From Megalonaias nervosa (lineage: Eukaryota > Mollusca > Bivalvia > Unionida > Unionidae): a stretch of 64,000 nt of DNA. A program made the translations under genes and the position numbers. Where the stretch lies: NCBI GenBank assembly GCA_016617855.1, contig JAECUM010001776.1:1-64000 (forward strand), in the 5' to 3' direction. Positions within the stretch are counted from its first letter, which is position 1. Each line of letters begins with the position of its first letter. Positions 2,629 to 61,335 of the stretch are shown here, in pieces. The notes below the pieces were generated by a model that ran no database searches, had not been told where the DNA came from, and worked only from the letters and a program-made list of their open reading frames with translations.

Positions 2629-3563
2629 TTACTTGTAATTGTTCACGTACAAATCCACGTTGAGGGGCTGTAGATCTAGTCTGTAGATTGGAGGTCTACC
2701 AGTGGATCTTACCACGCTAGAAATTTTATGTGTAGTCACGCTCCAGATAGGATCGGTTGCTCTTTTTTTACCACCTTCAAGTTCGCCAGGTTCATATAAA
2801 TATCTTACAGTTACATTACCTAATACTGGTTGAGAGAAAAATTCACGTCGTTGTATTGGTATATATTTTTTTTTTTTTGATCGCATTAGAAGGTTTCATG
2901 GAAGTTGCACGAGTAATTTCATTATTCAACGCAGCTATCACACCCGGTAATCTTGCAACCCATTCACGAGATCTATCCTTAAAGTCAGCGGATATTTCCC
3001 TTGCATATTGGTATCCAAATAACCGCTCAGCAAGTGTTCTATTAAATCGTTCAACGATTGCCTGATCACGATGAATTTCAGTATGTCCTCGTCTAATTTT
3101 AACGTTATGCTTGTTCATCAACGATGATACTACTCCAAGAAATTCTTTACCAGGATCAACTTGTAATAACCGTGGCCATCGTAGACCACCACGTTGATAA
3201 ATGCGCTCAAACGCAGATGCAACTTCAGATGCTGTCTTTGTTGATAATGGCTCCGCTTCTTTATATCTACTTGCAACATCAACGACAGTTAACGCGTATC
3301 TATACGTGTATTGACGTCTACGTGTTTTAATGGTATCGTGTGGTAAAAACAAAAATATCTGCTTGATGAACTTCATTAGGAACGCTAACATCAAAATGCG
3401 CATACTGAATTCTTTTAGGTGGACTTAGGAAGATTTGCCATATTGCCTGTCGTGCTAACCATGATGCAGCAACATCACGTGAAACTTTTGCTGCTTCGGC
3501 GAGTTTACTAATCGCTGCTTTACCTCTCCAATACCATCTCGGGGAATAATAAACAGATTCCAT
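2629..3563 (-). pseudogene. Retroviral-type (DDE) integrase, frameshifted
   Basis: Starts at 3563 with an N-terminal helical region (YYSPRWYWRGKAAISKLAEAA), then the catalytic core. The first Asp is in HQAD, the second in LLQVDPGKEF, and the Glu is in IVERFNRTLAERLFGYQYA. A small C-terminal region (RYLYEPGELEGGKKR) follows, without a recognisable chromodomain. Two frame changes are visible, one near 3345 in an A-rich stretch and one in the T-run at 2868-2878, so it is inactive as it stands. It converges on the polymerase-helicase gene with about 30 bp between them. Members of this family insert element DNA into the host with a 5-6 bp duplication. Confidence 0.85.
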
Positions 3564-4093: not shown

Positions 4094-4758
4094 ATGGATA
4101 TAATTGACTTTTCTGCGACACGAAAACAAGAACCAGTAAAGCACCATCCAGCGCTTCCGAATTCTATCAGAATGATTATAATAGGCCCATCTGGAAGTGG
4201 AAAGACGCAATTATTGCTCAATCTAATAATGAGGTGGCTGAAGTGGGATAAATTGTATTTGATAGCGCCATCTGTAGATGATCAGCGATGTTACGAAGTA
4301 CTTAAAAGATTTTAATGAAAACGCAAAATTGTTGCATGAAGACAGTGAAGTCATAGACTTTATTACTGATATTGATGAAGCGCCATCCGTAGATGATCTG
4401 GATGGATTCATTAATAACCTCGTGGTATACGATGATGTCATGCTGGACAAACAATCCAATCCAGCTCGGATATTTTCACGAGGCCGTCACAAAAACACAG
4501 ACGTGATTTATGTTACACAGCGTTATACACAAATTCCAAAAGTGATCAGGGATAACTAACATTTTAGTTGTGTTCAACGGAGTTGATAATCATACGCTGC
4601 AAAATATTTATTATACTTGGTGTTCTGGGGACATGGACATGAACAAATTTAAAAATTTCTTTTCAAAAGCACAAGCTGCTCCCTTTGGTTTTGTAACAAT
4701 AAATTTACATGTTCCAAGGTCAAGTTATCGTAACGGACTTGATACAATTTTTGGATAA
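4094..4758 (+). pseudogene. A32/FtsK-type genome-packaging ATPase, broken
   Basis: The ATG at 4094 opens a protein with Walker A GPSGSGKT (near 4185) and Walker B LVVYDDVML (near 4425), followed by the motif SRGRHKNTDVIYVTQRY that is typical of Polinton packaging ATPases. An extra A near 4308 shifts the frame, and the frame breaks again at a TAA at 4557-4559. The C-terminus (FVTINLHVPRSSYRN) is still readable to 4758. In DJR viruses this ATPase drives DNA into preformed capsids. Its neighbour, the PLA2 gene, is divergent. The gene ends 8 bp before the terminal repeat module. Confidence 0.87.
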
Positions 4759-42523: not shown

Positions 42524-42960
42524 TTAAAACATTGGTGCGCGGCTATGCCTGGTGATGGTACATTCGTGTACAGTTTTATGAAGTGGTTTTGTTGATCTTG
42601 ATACAACATCAAGTACTGCTAGTGTTTCACGGCCACATATCGGTGGATCCGTTAATGTTTGTGTTGGTAGCGTTGAATACCAGATTGGAATACTTTGAAG
42701 TCTGTCGATATACTTTAAAAATTCTTTTGGTGGTGCCAACCCATACGAATCAAAATAAACAATTCCACGTGGATCAATTGCATATGCAACCCAATGAGTG
42801 CCACGACCAGAGCTTTTATCGAGATTAATAATACCTGTTTCTGACAGATTTGGATTTTTTCGGTAATTGATCACGCATAAAAACACCTCTGAAATTCTTT
42901 ATATTTAGTTGCTTAGCAGCATCGAGTAAGTCAAAATTCGATAGTGGAACTATCGTCGGA
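42524..42960 (-). pseudogene. Adenain-like (Ulp1/C5-type) cysteine protease, frameshifted
   Basis: Catalytic landmarks in order: His in RGTHWVAYAID, the YFDSYGLAPPKEFL stretch that carries the Asp, and a Cys in ICGRETLAVL. An N-terminal piece LSNFDLLDAAKQLNIKNFRG lies in another frame, and a second shift falls near 42610. The family cleaves capsid and core precursors during maturation of DJR viruses. Confidence 0.78.
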
Positions 42961-45438: not shown

Positions 45439-45584
45439 CTATTATAATAATAATATCTAACTGTTTAATCAGTGACTTAGTCGGGCGACCTTTAGTCGCT
45501 ATAATAATCATCGGTAATTTCATTAATGAGTGACCGATACACCGGTAAATAATTGTTGACAAGTTGATGAGATTTCATTGATAA
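45439..45584. other. Right edge of element B, terminus missing
   Basis: AT-rich sequence with GTGACTTAGTCGGGCGACC and a partial inverse (GGTCGCC..GACTAAGTCAC direction). The 16-mer terminal motif is not present, so B is truncated here. Confidence 0.5.
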
Positions 45585-45960
45585 TTTCAGGAGAATTATC
45601 TCTGGATGCAAGTGATGTTGGGGTTGGAGCAGTATTGATTCAAGAAGACAGAAATGGTGTTGATCACCCAGTGTGCTATTTCTCTAAGAAATTAAATAAG
45701 CACCAAAGAAATTACTCAACAATCGAGAAGGAATGTTTGGCCTTAATACTGGCAATACAGCATTTTGAAGTTTACTTTAGCTCAGCTCCTTCCCCGGTTG
45801 TTGTGTTTAGTGATCACAACCCCCTTACTTTCATCGACAAGATGAAAAATAAATATCAAAGATTATTAAGGTAGAGTTTGTTTTTGCAAGAATATAATCT
45901 CGACATCAGGCACATCAAAGGAAAAGACAATTTGATTTTAGATGCACTTTCCCGTGTATA
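45585..45960 (+). pseudogene. Ty3/Gypsy RNase H domain, 5'-truncated
   Basis: Encodes LSLDASDVGVGAVLIQED, NYSTIEKECLALILAIQHFE and FSDHNPLTFI, the DASD..GVGAVL, EKE and SDH signatures of the RNase H that follows reverse transcriptase in Gypsy pol. A TAG at 45873 replaces the expected Trp, and the frame resumes FLQEYNLDIRHIKGKDN to a stop at 45959. No integrase follows; the 3' LTR starts 135 bp later, so this copy is deleted at both sides. Confidence 0.88.
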
Positions 45961-46082
45961 GAAATATTATTTCATATACACTTTATATAATTCATAGGAA
46001 TTTTCTTATGTAATTTTGTTTACTTCGTGTATAATTTACATATGGTAAAAAGAAAGCTTTATTATATAAATCTTTCCTTTTC

Positions 46083-46095: not shown

Positions 46096-47026
46096 TGTTA
46101 CGTATATGTAATTAAATTGCATGTGTGTTAGTTTTAAAATTCTTATTATTTTACTTTTGTTTCATTACATTTTATTGTAATGATTATTTTCACGGGATTC
46201 GAAATTCTTTTTCAGTAATTCGATATTTTCTTTAAGTGATATTGTTTATCTAAGACGTAAAACGTGTTACATGAACAATAGTTTTAGTTCACCTTTGTCC
46301 GCGGTAGTGTAAGCTCTACGCGAAAACGATTGACTATTGCCAAGGTCATTTCGTCTAGTCTGAATAAACAATGTTTTATTTTTAAATTTATTTCAGAGTG
46401 AGAGTAGATAGGGGTTCTTGCTACGAGACAAATTACATATTTACTATTGCGTTGTTCAAGTGTTAAGAGACCACGTGATCTATCTCGTGAGAACGGGATG
46501 ATGATTCATTTTGATATAATAACCCTTTCTGAGTGCTTGTCAGTCAGTTGTATTTTGAAACCTTAAAGGCTGGATAGGGTTTTGTTGTTGAAAACAGATT
46601 GTTTTTGAAGTCCATTTGTTTTTGAAATTTAAGAATTTTTCTCTAGAAAACTAAACGAGTGTACGGTTTTATAAATTCTGGGAGAAAGTAATTCAGTGGA
46701 ACTTTATTCTGGAATTATTCGGAAACATAAACTGTGATTCAATTGAGGAATTGTTGCTATTTGTAAAATAACCACATCTGACGTCATCGCCTTCCATATT
46801 GGAACGTCGTCGAGATTCGAACCTGGATTCTAATATAACTATTAAGTGATAGGACTTGTATTTTTCATGCTTAGGATTAAATTTTGGATTATATTCACAA
46901 ACCGTAAGTCCTATTTTTAAATTTTTACATTGTTTTCTAGGGAAATAAATTATTTTGTTAAAATATATAAAGCTTGTTGACTTCTCTCTTTTCGTCTGTT
47001 ACATTTGTACGAGCCTGCGCGTAACA
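46096..47026 (+). mobile_element. Ty3/Gypsy 3' LTR
   Basis: 931 bp, TGTTACGTATATG...GCGTAACA, homologous along its length to the solo LTR at 12973-13892. It is preceded by a polypurine tract and followed at once by PolB coding sequence of element C (CATG at 47027-47030 would be one target-duplication copy). The Gypsy element therefore inserted into C's polymerase gene; the 5' half of both is missing. Confidence 0.9.
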
Positions 47027-47028
47027 CA

Positions 47029-48576
47029 TGGAAGACTTGTACCAGGCCACTTGTCAGCGGCGCTTGAAATTAGAAGAGCAAGTATACCAAGTGGTAGAAA
47101 TGTGGGAACACGAGTACGATCACCGTTTGAAAACTGATCCCGAGTTTAAGGGTATCGTGGAAAGTGGACCCACTGAACCCTCGGGACAGTTTTTTCGGAG
47201 GACGGACGAATACCACCTGTTTGCTGTACCAAGTCGACGAGGGGAAAGGAGAGGAAATCAAATACTTGGACGTGTGTTCTCTGTATCAGTACGTGTGCAA
47301 ATATTGTCACTTTCCCGCAGGGCACCCGCAATTGCTGACGGAACACATCGACCTGGAAAACATTCGACAATACGAAGGATTGATCAAGTGTAAAGTCTTG
47401 CCTCCCACTAACTTGTACCATCCCGTTTTACCTCATCATTTCCAAGGAAACCTGATGTTTTATTTGTGCAACCAAGACCGACCTTGTCAGCATAGCCAGG
47501 AAAAACGCGCCTTAACGGGAACGTGGGTCAGCGTGGAATTGTTCAAAGCTCTGGACCTGGGATACCAACTGTTAGAAGTGTACGAAATTTACCACTTTCC
47601 CAAGACAGAAAAATGCCACAAGGGAGACGAGACTCAAAAGGGCATTTTCGCAGACTACGTGAATGCCTTTTTAAAACTGAAACAAGAAGCCAGCGGCTAT
47701 CCTTCCTGGTGCCACACTCCCAAAGGCCAAAAGAAATTCAAAGAGAAATACTGGGAGCAGGCAGGCATCACTTTAGACCACGTGGAGAAAAACGAAGGAA
47801 GGCGATCGTTTGCCAAAGTGTTGTTAAATTGCTTGTGGGGCAAAATGGCACAACGACCATGCTTACCCGAGACGGAGTATTTGACAGAACCTTCCCGCTA
47901 CTTCCAGATGATTCACGACAAAACCAAATACATAAAACACGTGGACGTCGTTCGTGAGGACTTGATCTTAGTCAATTACGAAGAAGAACTGGACTTTGTA
48001 GAAGCCGACGAATTTGGAAATGTCATCATTGCGGCTTACATGACAGCCCATACTCGCTTAAAATTGTACGAAGCTTTAGAACTGTTAGGAGATCGTATGC
48101 TGTATTTTGACACGGACAGTTGCATCTACATCGATCCTCTGGGTCAACAATAGCCTAACATCGAAGGAGACCGTTTAGGAGCCTGGACGGACGATCAGTC
48201 CGACGACAAGATTCTAAGTTTTGCAAGTGGCGTTCCCAAAACTTAAAGCTACGAATACAGAGACCCACTAGGAGAAGTGCACACCGAGTGTAAAGTGAAA
48301 GGATTGTCTCTCAATTATCGCACCAGTCGACTGGTGAACTTTGGTGTCTTGAAAGAAGTCTTGCAGTCTGGAGAGGATGGAAATTTTAAAGTGACCACCC
48401 ACGAACCCCACAAGAATGTACGTTTACCCACACACCAAATCGTCAGCCTGTCCTTGGAAAAAGTCTATCAAATCGTGTTCCAGAAGCGAGTACGGCTTCC
48501 CAATCACTTCACTTTACCGTACGGACAAACTGATATTGGTCAGCATATAAAAAGGGACAACGTTCAAGACCGATAG
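47029..48576 (+). pseudogene. DNA polymerase B C-terminal half, interrupted by the Gypsy insertion
   Basis: Landmarks: FFGGRTNTTCLLYQ, motif A LDVCSLYQYVCKYCHFPAGH, motif B KVLLNCLWGKMAQRP, motif C LYFDTDSCIYID, and NHFTLPYGQ near the end. This is the Maverick-type protein-primed PolB, with a canonical DTD. One frame change near 47160, TAG at 48151 and TAA at 48244. The exonuclease half lay upstream of the LTR and is absent. Confidence 0.88.
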
Positions 48577-48869: not shown

Positions 48870-48872
48870 ACC

Positions 48873-49235
48873 ATGCTGCTTCCACTCTACGCATGTCATC
48901 CAAAACTGAGCAAACTTCTACATATTTCACCTTACCCTCATCGAAATGAACCTGTGAAAGATGAATATTCGTTCCCTGTGCGATTGCCTGAATACTGCGA
49001 CTTTGAAAGTCGATTCCAAACTTTCCGAGGAAAATGGCCAAAGTATCTGGGAGGACCTACGCCCGAAGAATTAGCTAGAGCCGGATTTATCTACTTGGGC
49101 GAAAGTGATAAAGTTAAGTGCTTCAGTTGCGGTTTGTCACTTCACGAGTGGGAGAAGAAAGATTGCGTTTACCTGGAACATGCTCGATGGTCTCCAGATT
49201 GTCACTACTTACCTTTAGTGGGACCTCGTCATTGA
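48873..49235 (+). CDS. BIR-domain (IAP-type) protein, intact
   Basis: 120 residues with a single baculovirus-IAP-repeat: SRFQTFRGKWPKYLGGPTPE, LARAGFIYLGESDKVKCFSC, then GLSLHEWEKKDCVYLEHARW and a final Cys in SPDCHYL. The C..C, His and Cys zinc ligands and the Gly-Leu turn are all present. No RING finger is seen. IAP proteins bind caspases or signalling partners and block cell death; in a virus-like element this would keep the infected cell alive (inference). Open frame among broken neighbours. Either acquired from a host or inherited within the lineage. Confidence 0.9.
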   Translation: MLLPLYACHPKLSKLLHISPYPHRNEPVKDEYSFPVRLPEYCDFESRFQTFRGKWPKYLGGPTPEELARAGFIYLGESDKVKCFSCGLSLHEWEKKDCVYLEHARWSPDCHYLPLVGPRH

Positions 49236-52733: not shown

Positions 52734-53842
52734 ATGGAGAAGGTGTTAGCTAGCATTTACTACTATCCATCCCATCCTGAAGGTTACGAAGTAGTTCAGA
52801 AATTGCATCGTGCTGCAAACCTCGACTGAAAAGTGTTCGTTTACCTCAAGTGCAACGATGGTTACAAGAACAAGCCACGTACACCTAACACAAACCCATT
52901 CGACGAAAATTTTCTAGAAGTCGCACCTGAGTGGAGGGTATCGATCATCAATGGCAAGCCGATTTAGCCGATGTCTCTCATTTGGCCACCTACAATCATG
53001 GTTACAAATATTTGTTTTGTGTCATCGACGTCTTTTGCAAATTTGCTTGGGTCGTGCCATTGACTTCCAAATCGAGCAGTGAGTTAGTGAGAGCCCTCAA
53101 ACTGGTGTTGAAGCAAAGCGGACGTCAACCTCTTCGATAGCAAACCGACAAAGGCACCGAATTTCTGAACCAAGCTTTCCAAAAAAGAATTGAAGAAACG
53201 TGACATTCATTTTTTCACCACCGAGAATCCCGAAACCAAAGCCAGCATCGTGGAACGTATTCAACGCACCTTGAAAGAACGCATGTGGAAATATTTAACG
53301 CATCAACACACTCTCAAGTACATCGATGTCTTGCCACACCTAGTCCAAGAGTACAACCAATATTACCATCTGAGCATCGGACGTGCCCCCAAAGAAGTAA
53401 CTCCCGACAACAAAGTGGCCGTCTTCAAGGCCTTTTTGGTACGTCCCAGACAGTGACTGTCCCCAAGAAAGGTGGAGTGTTGGCAGCAGGAGATTGGGTG
53501 CGCAGTGGCAAAACCAAACACACTTTCGACAAAGGTTGCGTACTCAACTGGACCAAAGAATCGTTTCGTGTCACTGAACGTGTGCGTGGCCGTCATCCTC
53601 CAGTCTATAAATTGGAAGACATGAACGGGGAAGTGTTAAAAGGAACGTATTACTTGCCCGAGTTACAACGTGTGACCAAAAAAGAAGACGAAGTGTACGA
53701 GATCGAAGGCATACTCGATCGAAGAACCCGAAAAGTAGGAATAAAACGTGTCAAAGAAGTCAAAGTACGTTGGAAAGGATATCCTCCCAGTTTTGACTCT
53801 TGGATCGACGCTTCGCAAATCATCGACTATAAAAAGAAGTGA
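52734..53842 (+). pseudogene. Retroviral-type integrase with C-terminal chromodomain, broken
   Basis: MEKVLASIYYYPSHPEGYEV at the start; core with WQADLADVSHLATYNHGYKY (first Asp), QTDKGTEFLN (second Asp) and ASIVERIQRTLKERMWKYLT (Glu). The C-terminus has GILDRRTRKVGIKRVKEVKV followed by RWKGYPPSFDSWIDASQI, a chromodomain. Breaks include TGA near 52828, TAG at 53138 and frame changes near 52900, 53185 and 53450. The chromodomain, absent from A and B, could steer insertion to modified histones (family knowledge). Confidence 0.88.
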
Positions 53843-54252: not shown

Positions 54253-55159
54253 ACTACCAATTTTACTTAACGTTATCCAGTGACAGTTCCATGGAGGTGT
54301 TTCCCAATAACACCTTATGCTGTTACACGGCCAAATTACCTCAGCCATCCAATTAGATCACCAAGCCCATTGGGAAGTGGCTTTAGTGGAAATAATTCAC
54401 CCAACACAAATCAAAAACATCGCCAAAAATCAAAACACTTTTACGGTAGAAATTCATGACAAGCAAGTACAACAACACTTGGATGAACGCACCAGTGTAG
54501 ATGACTCTATGAAATCACAAGACACCAAAACTAAACGGACCAATTATCGGTTGAAAATTACCCCAGGCTATTATTTTAGTGGTCAACATTTGCTGAACGC
54601 CATTGCTGACAGGTTCATTGCCATGTTTGGTAAAGTCCTGGAGAAAACCAGAAAAAGTGTCACGATTGAATACCACAAAAAAACTCGTCGTCTACTAATC
54701 AAATTTTGAGAAGACAAAGTATTGGCCATTACATTTTGTCCTGAATTGTATGACATTTTGGGTGGGGACCCGAAGATGATTAAGATTACAAACGAAATAC
54801 CAGCCGTGACCGGTAACTCGGATTTTGCGAAATATTTTAAATTCCCTGTAGAAATGAACCAAGGACTAAATTTGATCTTTGTGTACTCCGATGTGGCGAA
54901 GTACAACGTGGTGGGACACACCTCCGTACCGTTATTGCGTGTCATTCCTTTGAAAGTGGATTCTGTCACCAATGCTGACGAGGGAGGTGGAAAAATTTAT
55001 CACGTTCACCGCGAATTTGTACATCCTCACTGTTTACCCGTTAGTAAGTCGTATTTCGACACTGCCAACATTACTATAAAAGGAGATCTGGGGCAAAATA
55101 TTCCATTCATCAAAGGGAAAGTCACAGTGAAACTCCATTTTCCAAAACGATTAGTCTAA
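54249..55159 (+). pseudogene. Minor capsid (penton) protein, one frameshift and one stop
   Basis: MNYQFYLTLSSDSSMEVFPN, then after a shift near 54345 LDHQAHWEVALVEIIHPTQI, YRLKITPGYYFSGQHLLNAI and ITIEYHKKTRRLL-type stretch. TGA near 54707, then LAITFCPELYDILGG, MNQGLNLIFVYSDVAKYNVV, GHTSVPLLRVIPLK, and a C-terminal FVHPHCLPVSKSYFDTANIT. This is the standard Maverick penton plan and length (about 303 codons). Confidence 0.82.
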
Positions 55160-56970: not shown

Positions 56971-57447
56971 CGAATCTTTGGAAATGGAATCTGAGGATAG
57001 CGTGAAATCAGAACATCAAGACAAAGACGAAGACCGCGTGATGGTCACGTCCAGATGGCCAGAACAAGAACAACATTTAATGTACTGTTTTGCCAAACAC
57101 CTGGCAGATAAAATTACGGAACTGACCAAGAAAAATTGCTATGGATGTCGAAACGATCATCCCAGTCAAATTCAACACGATAAATGTGTGATGATGAGTC
57201 AAGAAGAAAAATTGGACGAGTACCTGGATGAGGCTTGCAGTCTCATCTTGGAAGAAATGGTGTTGCATCAGTGGTATAAAGGCTTGCGTGATGATTCCTG
57301 CCCTCCACTGACTGCTAAAGAGATCTATCACGTCAAAGCTCTCTTGGCTCAAAGTACAGAGAGGAAGCAAAGAAACGGTTGCTTGTCAGAGATTTTCAAA
57401 CAAAAAGTTAGAATTACCTGTGGAATAAAAAAAAAAACACAACAAAA
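56939..57447 (+). CDS. Conserved zinc-binding Maverick protein (CxxC...HPSQ..H..C)
   Basis: Begins MKDSYSSLNGSESLEMESED overlapping the capsid end by 32 bp. The core is KITELTKKNCYGCRNDHPSQ followed by QHDKCVMM: a C..C...HPSQ..H...C cluster found in many Mavericks between capsid and protease genes. A helical domain follows (LDEACSLILEEMVLHQWYKG). The last codons overlap the protease start, and the true stop may have been shifted in the A10 run near 57430. Role unknown, possibly virion maturation. Confidence 0.62.
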
Positions 57448-57998
57448 ATGGATACCTGGGAACTTTATTATCTTTTGAATAACAGTTCGTATACTGCTTC
57501 TTGGAATCCTGTCGTGTGCGCTAAAGATGAACTACCTCATCGCAAACCTCAAGAGCATCAAGCTTATGTCATCAAGACGGATGTCAGTCATCTCCCAGGA
57601 ACTCACTGGGTCGCCGTCTACTTCCCTAAAGATGATTGTGTAGAGTATTTTGATTCGTATGGATTACCCCTTTGGAATACCACATCATCGACTTTATGAG
57701 AAGAAATGCCCAGACGACACGATAAAATAATGTGAAATTACAAGGCACAGATTCCATGGTGTGTGGACAATATTGTGTGCATTTTCTTCATCAACGCAGT
57801 CTTGGATATTCTTTAGAACATTTAGTGACTTATTTTGATCGTAACTCTTCTAGAAACGATGAGAAAGGAGGTCGATGGTTTTGTAACCATTATGGCTATC
57901 TTTTGTCTTTGTCTAGGAAACGTAGTTTACATCAATGGCCTCGTGACTTCCATCAATGGAAATCTCACATGATTTCACAACGTTGCCAACCTTGTTAA
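57448..57998 (+). pseudogene. Adenain-like cysteine protease, frameshifted
   Basis: Landmarks: AYVIKTDVSHLPGTHWVAVY (His), CVEYFDSYGLPLW (Asp region), then after a shift near 57675 QGTDSMVCGQYCVHFLHQRS (Gln and Cys). A TGA or shift near 57733 separates the halves. A poly(A) signal AATAAA at 58050-58055 is followed at once by an A15 run. The family matures capsid proteins. Confidence 0.85.
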
Positions 57999-58180
57999 AA
58001 ATAGTTTGTTTGATGTTATTGTTAATTGTTAATGGTTAATTGTTTATTGAATAAAAATGTTGTGTTTAAAAAAAAAAAAAAACATGTGTCTGTCCTTTGA
58101 ATATATGCTCTTTATCTTTCTCTCTATCCCTCACCATGACATTAGCTATCATAACGTTTCGACTAACAAAAACCCAGTAA

Positions 58181-58260
58181 GGATATTTTCTGTCGCGTCC
58201 GCGTTTCAACCATATAAAAGCGGGTCGATCTCCAGTCTGGCCATCCATGGTTGACTCGTC
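58181..58260 (+). promoter_or_regulatory. Promoter and leader of coiled-coil gene 1
   Basis: GGATATTTTCTGTCGCGTCC followed by TATAAAAG at 58213-58220 and a leader CAGTCTGGCCATCCATGGTT then GACTCGTC. The same blocks precede gene 2 (58930-59008) and, more loosely, gene 3 (60285-60335), so they are functional promoter parts shared by the three genes. Confidence 0.65.
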
Positions 58261-58265
58261 TACCT

Positions 58266-58637
58266 ATGAACATGCCTTCCAGACTAGCCAAGCTGAACGA
58301 AGCTCACGTGAATTTACATCGCGTCAGGCTAAACCTGATACCAAAGCCTGAAGAGATAGAGAATGCCAGAATGTTAGCAATAGCCCAAGACCTGATAGAA
58401 GAGGTCTTCAGAGAGGAAATCAAGAAAGAACAAGAAGAATGGACAGAGATGTACAGACTTCAGAAGCAGAGAGAACAGCAACAACATCACCATCAGCAAC
58501 AGAAACAGCAAGAACCAGACAGAGGTTTTGTCGACTGTCGTGTGGACACCAAAGAGTTCTCCTTTTCTTTCAGCAGAAGCAGGCCGTATCGTATAGGAAA
58601 GCCTGCCGCCAGACGGGGACGCAATCTTAGACAGTAA
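58266..58637 (+). CDS. Coiled-coil paralog 1 (His/Gln-rich), intact
   Basis: 123 residues: MNMPSRLAKLNEAHVNLHRV, a helical charged middle (IAQDLIEEVFREEIKKEQEE), a His/Gln tract, and a tail FSRSRPYRIGKPAARRGRNL. The N-terminus aligns with genes 2 and 3 (RIAKLLELQMHLEYARRLLD; MERLIRLQEVVDTLFMVEEM), showing a three-gene family. A histone-type stem-loop lies 34 bp after the stop. Family unknown. The gene is downstream of the protease and transcribed in the same direction. Confidence 0.6.
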   Translation: MNMPSRLAKLNEAHVNLHRVRLNLIPKPEEIENARMLAIAQDLIEEVFREEIKKEQEEWTEMYRLQKQREQQQHHHQQQKQQEPDRGFVDCRVDTKEFSFSFSRSRPYRIGKPAARRGRNLRQ

Positions 58638-58670: not shown

Positions 58671-58707
58671 AGCCCTTTTCAGGGCTACCCCAATACTCTC
58701 GAAAAGA
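58671..58707 (+). terminator. Histone-type 3' stem-loop and HDE-like element, gene 1
   Basis: AGCCCT-TTTC-AGGGCT, a perfect 6-bp stem with the 4-nt UUUC loop of replication-dependent histone mRNAs, preceded by AACAATAC and followed by ACCCCA. GAAAAGA at 58701-58707, 14 nt after the stem, stands where the U7-binding purine element belongs. Confidence 0.75.
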
Positions 58708-58930
58708 CATACTAATTCAATTGCCAAACAAATTTTGTGTCTGTTTGTTAAAAAAATAGAAGTGTGTCTATAAGCAATTCGTTTCTTTGGTCAGTAAAAA
58801 AAAACATCTACACATCGTTTCACTGTCTTGTCGAATCGTGATTGTCTGTGTTTGTAAGTAAAAAAATGTCAACGTGAGTGTTTCTTTTAGGTCCGCGCGT
58901 TTGATGTGATGGTAGGTTTTGGTGTCAGGG

Positions 58931-59008
58931 GATGTTTACCTTCACGTCCGTGCTTCAAGTATATAATGCGGCGCTATGGTCAGTCTGGCTACCCATCGTT
59001 GACTCGTC
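58931..59008 (+). promoter_or_regulatory. Promoter and leader of coiled-coil gene 2
   Basis: GATGTTTACCTTCACGTCCG then TGCTTCAAG, TATATAAT at 58960-58967, and leader CAGTCTGGCTACCCATCGTT then GACTCGTC at 58981-59008, matching gene 1. Confidence 0.65.
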
Positions 59009-59018
59009 AACATTGAAA

Positions 59019-59522
59019 ATGAGTAACAGAATTGCAAAGTTACTGGAACTTCAGATGCACCTGGAGTATGCCAGGCGGCTGCTAGACGAACTGGCCATGT
59101 AGGCTGTAGCGGAAGAAGCAAGGATAGAAGAGGAAGAGAAGAAGAGGAAGAAAGAAGAGCAGAAGGAAATCAAGAGAGGGATCCTGCCTCACCTCATAAT
59201 GAGACCTGTGTTTGAGGTGAAGCCAATGATCAGTACACCTCCACAATCAGTACCGCCACCTCAGAAACAGCTACAGCCACAGTCACAACAACAACAACAA
59301 CAACCAGTACAGCATGCAGAGGAAACAAGGAGTCCACAGCATCCACGAGTGTGGCATAGAAGAACACAGAGGGAACAAGTCTTCACTATTGCACAAACGG
59401 AGGAATGGGATAGTGAAGCCACTCAACCTCCCTCAGCGCTCCCAAGAACAACTCTGAACTGGGCCAATGATTGGAGTAGGAGATGTGTCTGTGGTGCCAG
59501 ACCTGGGAGGTGTAACTATTAG
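59019..59522 (+). pseudogene. Coiled-coil paralog 2, one internal stop
   Basis: MSNRIAKLLELQMHLEYARR continues for 27 codons to TAG at 59100-59102. The frame then gives a Glu/Lys-rich helix (EEARIEEEEKKRKKEEQKEI), a Pro/Gln-rich linker and a C-terminal RCVCGARPGRCNY with three cysteines, to 59522. The stop is the only defect. A histone-type stem-loop follows 27 bp after the final stop. Confidence 0.55.
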
Positions 59523-59548
59523 CCAGGTGCATCTGAAGTTCTAAAAAC

Positions 59549-59584
59549 AGCCCTTCTCAGGGCTAAACAGATCTCTAGAAAAGA
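59549..59584 (+). terminator. Histone-type 3' stem-loop and HDE-like element, gene 2
   Basis: AGCCCT-TCTC-AGGGCT, perfect 6-bp stem with loop UCUC, preceded by CTAAAAAC; GAAAAGA at 59578-59584, 13 nt after the stem. Confidence 0.75.
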
Positions 59585-59656
59585 TACACTATTCAGTTTA
59601 CCAATTTGTGTGAATGTAGAGTAGTGTGACTATAAACACTCACTCGTTTACTGATA

Positions 59657-59657
59657 T

Positions 59658-59699
<42 letters not shown>
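59657..59699. repeat. (GT)n microsatellite
   Basis: GT tract leading into the minisatellite. Confidence 0.95.
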
Positions 59700-59700
<1 letters not shown>

Positions 59701-59754
59701 GCGTTCGTGTACGATTGTGTGAATAATATAGTGTGTGTGTGTTCTATGCGTTCG

Positions 59755-60270
59755 CGTCCGTTTGTGTGGATAGTAGGTATTGTGTGTTTTTTCTTCTCTT
59801 CCCGTCTGTGTGGATAGTATAGTGTGTGTTTTTATGTGTTCGCGTACGTTTGTGTGGACAGTAGAGTCTGTTGTTTTCTTCTCTTCCCGTCTGTGTGGAT
59901 AGTATATATGGTGTGTTTTTTGCATTCACGTTCATTTGTGTGGATAGTATATGTAGTGTGTTATTTAGCGTTCTCGTCCGTTTGTGTGGATAGTATATGT
60001 GGATTGTTTTATGCATTGGTGTTCGTTTGTGTGGATAGTAAATATGGTGTGTTTTATGCATTTGCGTTCGTTTTGGGGGATAGTAGGTATGGTGTGTTTT
60101 ATACATTCGCGTTCATTTGTGTGGATAGTAGAGTGTATGTTTTTTTCTTCTCTTCCCGTCTGTGTGGATAGTATATATGGTGTGTTTTATGCATTCACGT
60201 CCGTTTCTGTGGATAGTAAGTATGGTGTGTTTTATGCATTCGCGTCCGTTTGTGTTGATAGTATATATGT
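59755..60270. repeat. Minisatellite, ~44-bp unit, about 12 copies
   Basis: Unit of the form CGTCCGTTTGTGTGGATAGT followed by ATATATGGTGTGTTTT.TGCATT. The TGTGGATAGTA core recurs every 43-47 bp. A single inverted copy lies at 60963-60991. The CGTCCGTTTGTG part resembles the CGTCCGTGCTTC promoter block of the flanking genes. Open frames on both strands through the array are artefacts. Confidence 0.88.
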
Positions 60271-60284
60271 GAACTGAGTGTAAG

Positions 60285-60335
60285 AGATGTTTTTCCTTCA
60301 AGTCCGTGCTCTACGGATATAAAGCAGAAAGCTCG
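60285..60335 (+). promoter_or_regulatory. Promoter and leader of coiled-coil gene 3
   Basis: AGATGTTTTTCCTTCAAGTC then CGTGCTCTACGG, TATAAAG at 60318-60324, and GCTCGTCATTC in the leader; same order as genes 1 and 2 but more diverged. Confidence 0.55.
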
Positions 60336-60367
60336 TCATTCGCGCCATTGAACGCTGAATATAAAAA

Positions 60368-60856
60368 ATGGCAAGTAACATGGAGAGATTGATAAGATTG
60401 CAGGAGGTGGTAGACACACTATTCATGGTGGAGGAGATGCTAGTAAGAATGCAGTTTGGGGCTTATAGTTCCCACAGACTAAGTATGGAGATTAACAATT
60501 TAAAGAAAGGAAAGGACATCTTAAATGAGATGATAAGATTAGGAAAGGAAGAAAAGGAAGATATAGAATACAACCAGAGGATGAGAGAATGGAATGAAAA
60601 AATTGAAAAGGAAGAAGAAAATGAAAAGAGGAATAAACAGAAAGAGGAGGAGGAGAAGGAAAAAAGGAGGAAAAGAATGAAGAAAGACAAAAAGTGTAGG
60701 ACAAAAGATAAGAAGTTGGTGGAGGAAAATAAGAAATTAGAAAAGAAGAAGAAACCCAACGGTCCTTTTCAGGACCACTTTCATATGCCTCGAAAAATTC
60801 TTTATTCTTTCTTGCCTAAAACAAAATTTTTATTCGATTGTATAATTTATGTTTAA
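60368..60856 (+). CDS. Coiled-coil paralog 3, Lys/Glu-rich
   Basis: MASNMERLIRLQEVVDTLFM, YSSHRLSMEINNLKKGKDIL, then a long E/K heptad region (NEKIEKEEENEKRNKQKEEE) ending KKKKPNG at the stem-loop. The frame reads through the stem-loop to a stop at 60854, whereas genes 1 and 2 stop 27-34 bp before it. TAA and TAG occur in the other two frames 20-40 bp upstream of the stem-loop, so a recent one-base change may have removed the proper stop. Probably alpha-helical; function unknown. Confidence 0.5.
   Translation: MASNMERLIRLQEVVDTLFMVEEMLVRMQFGAYSSHRLSMEINNLKKGKDILNEMIRLGKEEKEDIEYNQRMREWNEKIEKEEENEKRNKQKEEEEKEKRRKRMKKDKKCRTKDKKLVEENKKLEKKKKPNGPFQDHFHMPRKILYSFLPKTKFLFDCIIYV
60761..60797 (+). terminator. 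Histone-type 3' stem-loop, gene 3 (consensus match)
   Basis: GGTCCT-TTTC-AGGACC preceded by AACCCAAC and followed by ACTTTCA: this fits the metazoan histone consensus at every stem and loop position. GAAAAA at 60792-60797, 15 nt after the stem, is a weaker purine element. Confidence 0.8.
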
Positions 60857-61010
60857 CTCTCAAAAACATTATTCTCTTGCCTAAAATTGGTTTAGTCGGT
60901 TGTATGATTTGGGTATGATAGATTGATGTTCATCAGCCTTTGGAAACGAACGCTATTGCATAAAACACACACTATACTATCCACAGAAACGTACTCGAAG
61001 GCATAAAACT
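60857..61010. other. Right edge of element C
   Basis: No gene. Includes TTCTTGCCTAAAA repeated (60810 and 60874 regions) and an inverted minisatellite unit at 60963-60991. Confidence 0.5.
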
Positions 61011-61130
61011 TTGTATAGGGACAATAGGAATGGAACAGGTGGGATGACGTCATGGTACTTGCCACATTGTTGCAAGTTTCTAGTACTGTGACGTCACCCT
61101 ACCTGTTCCATTCCTATTGTCCCTATACAA
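61011..61130. repeat. Long hairpin (49-nt arms) at the probable end of element C
   Basis: TTGTATAGGGACAATAGGAA...TGACGTCATGGTACT at 61011-61059 is repeated in inverse at 61082-61130 with about four mismatches, around a 22-nt loop. Each arm holds a TGACGTCA/GTGACGTCAC palindrome (CRE-like). It may be a small foldback MITE or the terminal structure of element C. Confidence 0.8.
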
Positions 61131-61335
61131 AATTCCCATTGTCGCTATACAATCCCAGGGTTTTGATTTTGTCGCTATAAATCTTGTCGCTATACAAACC
61201 CAGAGAAGTCTGTAATGTATTTTTCCCATTGTCGCTATAAAGGCAAGGCTGTGCCATTTGTCACTATAAATCTTGTCGCCATAGTGCCGCAGGGGGTCTG
61301 TAATGTATGTTCCCATTGTCGCCATACTACCCCGC
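61131..61335. repeat. Two ~95-bp degenerate direct repeats rich in TTGTCGCTATA
   Basis: Units start CCCATTGTCGCTATA, contain ATAAATCTTGTCGC.ATA, and end GTCTGTAATGTAT. The TTGTCGCTATAC core resembles the hairpin arm (TTGTCCCTATAC), so the region probably derives from the same terminal sequence. Confidence 0.6.

Follow-up and report, generated by a model that had tools for sequence, protein, structure and literature searches.

Probable histone-type mRNA 3' ends on small non-histone genes of a Maverick/Polinton-type element in the bivalve Megalonaias nervosa

Can a mobile DNA element end its messages in the way that histone genes end theirs? The histone 3' end is regarded as a near-private mark of animal histone mRNAs. 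The question is raised by a 64,000-nucleotide stretch of the Megalonaias nervosa genome (GenBank assembly GCA_016617855.1, contig JAECUM010001776.1, positions 1 to 64,000 of the forward strand; below, the window is this whole stretch), in which three small genes, here numbered 1 to 3, are accompanied by stem-loops and purine-rich elements arranged as in replication-dependent histone mRNAs. They are accessory genes on the right-hand side of a Maverick/Polinton-type element with a high copy number, and from comparisons of its copies we consider it likely that the mRNAs of the accessory genes are made like replication-dependent histone mRNAs. The features in question are:

58213 to 58219, plus strand: TATA box of gene 1, inside a promoter-like block
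58266 to 58637, plus strand: gene 1, an open frame of 123 residues with a helical N-terminal part and a basic tail
58671 to 58686, plus strand: histone-type stem-loop of gene 1 (AGCCCT TTTC AGGGCT), 33 nt past the stop, Rfam score 23.5 bits
58701 to 58707, plus strand: candidate histone downstream element of gene 1 (GAAAAGA), starting 14 nt past the stem
58960 to 58966, plus strand: TATA box of gene 2, inside a promoter-like block
59019 to 59522, plus strand: gene 2, its frame broken in the window copy by an in-frame TAG after 27 codons
59549 to 59564, plus strand: histone-type stem-loop of gene 2 (AGCCCT TCTC AGGGCT), 26 nt past the stop, Rfam score 23.9 bits
59578 to 59584, plus strand: candidate histone downstream element of gene 2 (GAAAAGA), starting 13 nt past the stem
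60318 to 60323, plus strand: TATA box of gene 3, inside a promoter-like block
60368 to 60856, plus strand: gene 3, lysine/glutamate-rich and coiled-coil-like, its frame continuing through the stem-loop
60761 to 60776, plus strand: histone-type stem-loop of gene 3 (GGTCCT TTTC AGGACC), Rfam Histone3 score 34.8 bits
60792 to 60798, plus strand: candidate histone downstream element of gene 3 (GAAAAAT), starting 15 nt past the stem

The stem-loops and purine elements are confirmed as genuine features of the window: the first-pass annotation had described perfect 6-bp stems with 4-nt loops after three tandem genes and a purine element 13-15 nt past each stem, and all of these were found in place, as were the gene starts. 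Under a strict rule (perfect 6-bp stem, G at position 2 followed by four pyrimidines, loop YYY[AC]), both strands of the 64 kb contain three matches in total, and these are the stem-loops of genes 1, 2 and 3. An order-1 Markov model gives an expectation of 0.05 such stem-loops per window (maximum 1 in 100 simulations), and in 96,106 bases of other copies of the element there are 18, every one at the end of an accessory gene, with 0.025 expected (40 simulations), so that a chance origin is rejected. No strict stem-loop occurs in the stretches L045, L046, L048, L120 and L121, which hold polymerase-side genes, and in the stretches read the signal was not seen at the frames of the polymerase, the BIR domain, the integrase or the capsid region. 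If G-U pairs are permitted, five extra matches appear off gene ends (two in L039 and one each in L040, L042 and L045). The Rfam model Histone3 (RF00032) has a gathering score of 34 bits, which in the window is passed by the gene-3 stem-loop only, genes 1 and 2 having been scored with a lax threshold; in other copies it is passed by the stem-loops of gene 3 and of two further genes, X and Y, described below.

How well is this arrangement preserved among copies of the element? Thirty loci, 29 plus that of the window, were selected by the gene-1 protein alone, ignoring the stem-loops. All six pairs are intact in 18 of 30 gene-1 rows (window included) and in 24 of 29 gene-2 rows, and with six gene-3 and five Y rows added, 53 of 70 stem-loops are fully paired. 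Of the added rows, three for gene 3 and all five for Y are biased, as they were found through Histone3. In register, 394 of 420 cells pair, and when the partners are shifted by -3, -2, -1, +2 or +3, pairing is seen in 16 of 420, 77 of 420, 152 of 420, 137 of 280 and 70 of 210 cells, respectively. The gene-2 stem-loop has a pairwise identity of 0.93 as compared to 0.65-0.83 in the preceding gene-2 sequence, and of 225 comparison windows in this region three equal the stem-loop value, two of them lying on the stem-loop itself. In the gene-1 region, the stem-loop has an identity of 0.90 and the coding part 0.96, and the spacer falls to 0.34. At the first pair of the stem, genes 1 and 2 have A-T and genes 3 and Y have G-C, and the third pair of the outer class is C-G, T-G or T-A.

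The spacing from the stem to the purine element is preserved as well. For 108 out of 114 distinct stem-loops, this element begins 12-15 nt past the stem, and for 76 of the 108 at 13 nt; the set of 114 includes one chance match (L049) and many stem-loops from loci selected with Histone3, a model that itself extends 3' of the stem. The distance from stop to stem-loop was measured in records that have an intact stem-loop pattern as well as a C-terminal motif, with some copies entering twice. It spans 33-59 nt in gene 1 (21 records), 26-35 nt for Y (13), 16-55 nt for X (19 values from 15 records) and 11-30 nt for gene 3 (10). The histone mRNA 3'-end layout that the first-pass annotation had recognized recurs, stem-loop and purine element together and in place, among the copies selected by gene 1.

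At the left end of the element, two further genes carry the same signal. In L047 (contig C1200), gene Y (77 residues) points outwards and gene X inwards, the polymerase lies further in, and the sequence after both genes is GGCCCTTTTCAGGGCC. X and Y occur together in four of the six left ends read (L007/L046, L008/L045, L047 and L120), of which L007/L046 and L008/L045 were chosen through their Y stem-loops; the L120 stretch showed no intact stem-loop, and the X stem-loop of L007 was not found by the pattern. The left end of L121 has an X-type stem-loop with a marginal protein match, and neither X nor Y was found at the left end of L048, in the window or in the copy C52050. In the C1200 copy, the end with the Y stem-loop matches the end with the gene-3 stem-loop in opposite orientation, at 97.2% identity over 106 nt and up to the limit of the stretch read, and the outermost stem-loops, about 21 kb apart, are therefore part of terminal inverted repeats. 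The inverted repeat between the left end of L047 and positions 60752-61016 of the window has 88% identity over 269 nt, and the sequence that the window has in common with the left ends of other copies starts just ahead of the gene-3 stem-loop. Neither the two additional stem-looped genes nor the placement in inverted repeats figured in the first-pass annotation. Two repeats lie nearby: a decayed 45-bp tandem repeat array at 59690-60290 separates genes 2 and 3, is present in other copies too and recurs in inverted arrangement immediately beyond gene 3 as well as at the left end of L047. At 61007-61134 lies an inverted repeat of 53 nt whose arms are 22 nt apart, with a similar stretch beyond the gene-Y stem-loop of L008. 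MIR/mir matches at 61.0-61.1 kb are under their gathering scores and were rejected as an inverted-repeat hairpin.

Which proteins would be encoded by such messages? Gene 1 is the only gene in the window with an uninterrupted frame that ends ahead of its own stem-loop, and the earlier description of the three genes is corrected in that gene 2 has an early stop codon here and gene 3 a frame that crosses the stem-loop. A promoter-like block with a TATA box is common to all three genes and lies upstream of each. The structure model of gene 1 (predicted local distance difference test score, pLDDT, 71; predicted template modelling score, pTM, 0.34) has helices at residues 6-24 and 28-79 and a low-confidence basic tail that is probably disordered, which agrees with the earlier claim of non-histone products. 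A Pfam search with genes 1 and 3 gave no match. In 27 other copies, the first stop of gene 2 is found at the same codon as in the window in two, after at least 135 codons in nine, and between these positions or earlier in 16. Gene 3 was compared in 28 further records of its type: the longest frame from an ATG stops 18-30 nt short of the stem-loop in three (L072, L090, L092), crosses it in four (L039, L055, L100 and L106, the frames not all being identical) and stops earlier in the remaining ones. Judged by their frames, genes 2 and 3 of the window look decayed, as do most copies. For gene 1, the genome gave 7,973 first-look candidates, of which the best 150 were scored; 126 of these 150 have no internal stop. 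Metagenome-derived proteins include 11 relatives of gene 1 (68-83% identity) and three of gene Y.

With regard to the host, C954 carries the RNA-binding domain of SLBP (PF15247), split into two pieces (E 1.9e-15 and 1.2e-6). Histone3 was also run over the 2.19-Gb genome, where the best 75 of 423,121 first-look candidates were scored, the top one reaching 44 bits. Their flanks were read for about 1.5 kb on each side at L001-L008, less at contig ends, and at the other 67 loci for some 600 nt on the upstream and 150 nt on the downstream side, two of these loci being clipped by contig ends. Within these flanks, no core or linker histone (H1, H2A, H2B, H3, H4) was detected at E 1e-3 beside any of the 75 loci, the closest being one 10-residue H4 match with E 0.28; this covers the best-scored candidates only, and host histones may still carry the signal. 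Element genes are matched by 66 of the 75 (best label X in 22, Y in 21 and gene-3 type in 23, some gene-3 labels resting on short or low-complexity matches), and of the nine unlabelled loci four resemble X or gene 3 by eye. That the scored matches are histone genes is rejected on these counts, which also serve as a warning for genome annotation. Among prokaryote genome contigs no related locus was found, and L049, the single viral-contig match of a second pattern, was rejected as it has phage-like frames and no convincing match to the element.

How would these 3' ends be formed? According to passages of PMC5636114, SLBP sits on the stem-loop of histone pre-mRNA and U7 RNA pairs with the purine-rich element, the pre-mRNA is cut between both, and the mature message ends with the stem-loop plus 4-5 nt. 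All sequence parts of a histone 3' end are present, in order, at the element genes, and we therefore consider it likely that the genes give rise to messages of histone type, with the strongest expression in cells that are replicating. From the layout, its conservation and placement and the presence of SLBP, all of which are observed, we infer processing, S-phase timing and a pay-off for the element as follows. Host SLBP would bind the element stem-loop, the U7 small nuclear ribonucleoprotein would pair with the purine element 13-15 nt downstream, and CPSF73 would cleave between the two, leaving a message that terminates in the stem-loop and has no poly(A) tail. The element would have two classes of mRNA, polyadenylated ones for replication and virion-type genes and histone-type ones for small proteins. 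As a pay-off, expression of the latter would be limited to, or highest in, cells that replicate their DNA, when the polymerase of the element can copy the element. The wider proposal, an S-phase-coupled two-class programme with five small SLBP/U7-type messages, two of which take their 3' ends from the inverted repeats, and with element stem-loops, owing to the many copies, as a major, perhaps dominant class of potential SLBP targets in the host, is one that we favour slightly.

Several observations weigh against histone-type processing and have to be considered together with the alternatives that they suggest. The evidence comes from one host genome, and no relative was found in viral contigs with a polymerase piece, gene 1 or the stem-loop pattern as queries. 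The stem-loops of genes 1 and 2 (23-29 bits) are under the Rfam cut-off, likewise that of X in L004 (25 bits). The first-pass annotation had named absence of the stem-loops from related elements, and erosion of stems without compensatory changes, as findings that would count against it; the stem-loops do recur in related copies, but stems erode, with a broken pair in 17 of 70, and covariation is slight and mainly between different genes. Stem erosion in single copies is as expected for dead copies. With partners shifted by +1, pairing persists in 271 of 350 cells, owing to the repetitive stem, and 142 of 385 windows in the gene-1 region, many of them coding, reach 0.90, which makes the conservation test weaker for gene 1 than for gene 2. 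Such frequent, private changes of single stems would be expected if the signal were a passive relic, i.e. a captured histone 3' end that was spread by recombination between gene ends, is conserved only owing to the young age of the copies and no longer has a function, and the fact that gene ends are alike beyond the stem-loop would fit as well. It counts against a relic, however, that the gene-2 stem-loop outlasts its surroundings, that the spacing of the purine element is kept over five gene classes and the stem-loop stays near the stop in four, and that both sides of pairs change together between genes, and we regard it as highly improbable.

A second alternative is that SLBP binds the stem-loops for stability or translation, while the messages are cut and polyadenylated further downstream or have alternative 3' ends. 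The poly(A) signals on either side of gene 1 bear on it, the upstream one being:

58050 to 58055, plus strand: AATAAA past the gene that precedes gene 1; six of six other copies have one in about this position

This upstream signal lies about 225-240 nt ahead of gene 1 in seven of seven copies and counts in favour of the main reading with its two mRNA classes. Past gene 1, the picture is mixed: 27 copies in which the gene-1 stop was located were compared, and 14 have an AATAAA no more than 250 nt from the stop. In 11 of these 14 it lies at 119-125 nt, about 70 nt past the stem-loop, and there is none up to 250 nt in the window and 12 other copies. The distances from stop to stem-loop in gene 2 are long (90-176 nt) in the four records found by the motif, which failed to recover the 26-nt spacing of the window itself. 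These points, too, count against a purely histone-type end, and PMC9756948, by its title a study in which human histone pre-mRNA assembles either histone or canonical mRNA-processing complexes, would agree with this alternative. Yet a purine element at a fixed distance is expected only with U7-guided cleavage, and 13 of 27 gene-1 copies have no AATAAA there, and we regard this second alternative as highly improbable. With AATAAA downstream of gene 1 in some copies and not in others, a fallback or alternative poly(A) end of this gene is possible. Finally, that the stem-loops are DNA hairpins for replication, integration or packaging at the element ends would suit the outermost ones within the terminal inverted repeats, but those of genes 1, 2 and X are internal, and the stem-loops lie 3' of their genes in sense orientation, the pyrimidine loop and the purine element after it being ordered as in histone messages, so that this explanation is very unlikely indeed.

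Histone-type processing as the preferred reading has to be seen in the context of the element as a whole, of which the window contains the following parts, besides a second element named A:

47025 to 48573, plus strand: family-B DNA polymerase in broken pieces (Pfam PF03175, E 9.6e-24 on 47131-48153)
48870 to 49235, plus strand: frame with a BIR (inhibitor-of-apoptosis) domain (Pfam PF00653, E 2.2e-23)
53204 to 53842, plus strand: C-terminal part of an integrase with chromodomain (Pfam PF00385, E 2.2e-8; "integrase" from position and copy alignment)
57412 to 57995, plus strand: reading frames directly 5' of gene 1; in other copies, the corresponding stretch is related to the element-A frame at 42527-42898
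About 29 to 45.5 kb: element A, likewise of Maverick type, comprising an A32-like ATPase, an integrase core, a helicase-type ATPase frame and a double jelly-roll (DJR) capsid

The 8.5-kb stretches around six other gene-1 copies are all colinear with the window from 53 kb to about 59-61 kb, at 78-98% identity per segment, with a part missing or replaced in L041. These same Maverick-type neighbours in six of six further copies and the PF03175 polymerase bear out the earlier Maverick-type assignment; of the first-pass interpretation, the layout, the element type and the non-histone products are thus supported. The element-A frame at 42527-42898 is read as protease-like, a reading without database match. 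A relative of the A32-like ATPase of element A is present in two pieces from other copies, and Pfam detected no rve-core match in the stem-loop element. The capsid-region frames at 55.8-57.0 kb have no Pfam or PHROG match and a PDB sequence search returned nothing useful for them; for the frame at 54710-55156, a protein search matched two metagenome proteins. Some further observations concern the surroundings of these genes. L046:4806-5916 contains two BIR-like matches. The polymerase is adjoined by a stretch at 45560-45980 that is retrotransposon-like by reading and about 97% shared with the copy C52050. At the other end of the window, the frame at 2846-3424 aligns with the integrase region of copies (L041) and that at 4278-4556 with the ATPase region, and both are possibly a piece of a third Maverick-type element.

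If the messages are indeed processed in the histone manner, the histone 3'-end pathway would be open to takeover by a mobile, virus-like element, and a DNA element could sense S phase without any regulator of its own. The accessory genes would provide a natural set of non-histone SLBP/U7 substrates, and poly(A)-selected RNA-seq would miss their transcripts.

How does this arrangement compare with known systems? With replication-dependent histone 3' ends it shares the 6-bp stem, the 4-nt pyrimidine-rich loop, the A/C-rich flanks, the short 3' untranslated region and the purine element about 13 nt downstream, and the versions of gene 3 and Y match Histone3 with up to 44 bits, that of X with 40 bits in L047. 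It differs in that the genes are non-histone genes on a mobile element, and that the versions of genes 1 and 2 have an A-U first pair and 23-29 bits. With Maverick/Polinton elements and adintoviruses, the element shares the family-B DNA polymerase, the chromodomain frame, the inverted repeats and frames related to the ATPase and the protease-like frame of element A, whereas it is set apart by the BIR gene and by five small genes that carry histone-type 3' ends, two of which lie at the inverted repeats. Element A likewise has a Maverick-type gene set, but no strict histone-type stem-loop, and the trait is therefore not general to all Mavericks. Searches of an open-access library showed, among the papers listed, none that by its abstract describes such 3' ends for Mavericks, adintoviruses or any other mobile element; in PMC11071296, the term "histone" is used for histone-like proteins of adomaviruses and their relatives, and the terms "stem-loop" and "polyadenyl" are absent. 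A further parallel is given by the histones encoded by DNA viruses (PMC9145170): histone biology is exploited in both cases, there by means of the histone protein, and here by means of the mRNA end only.

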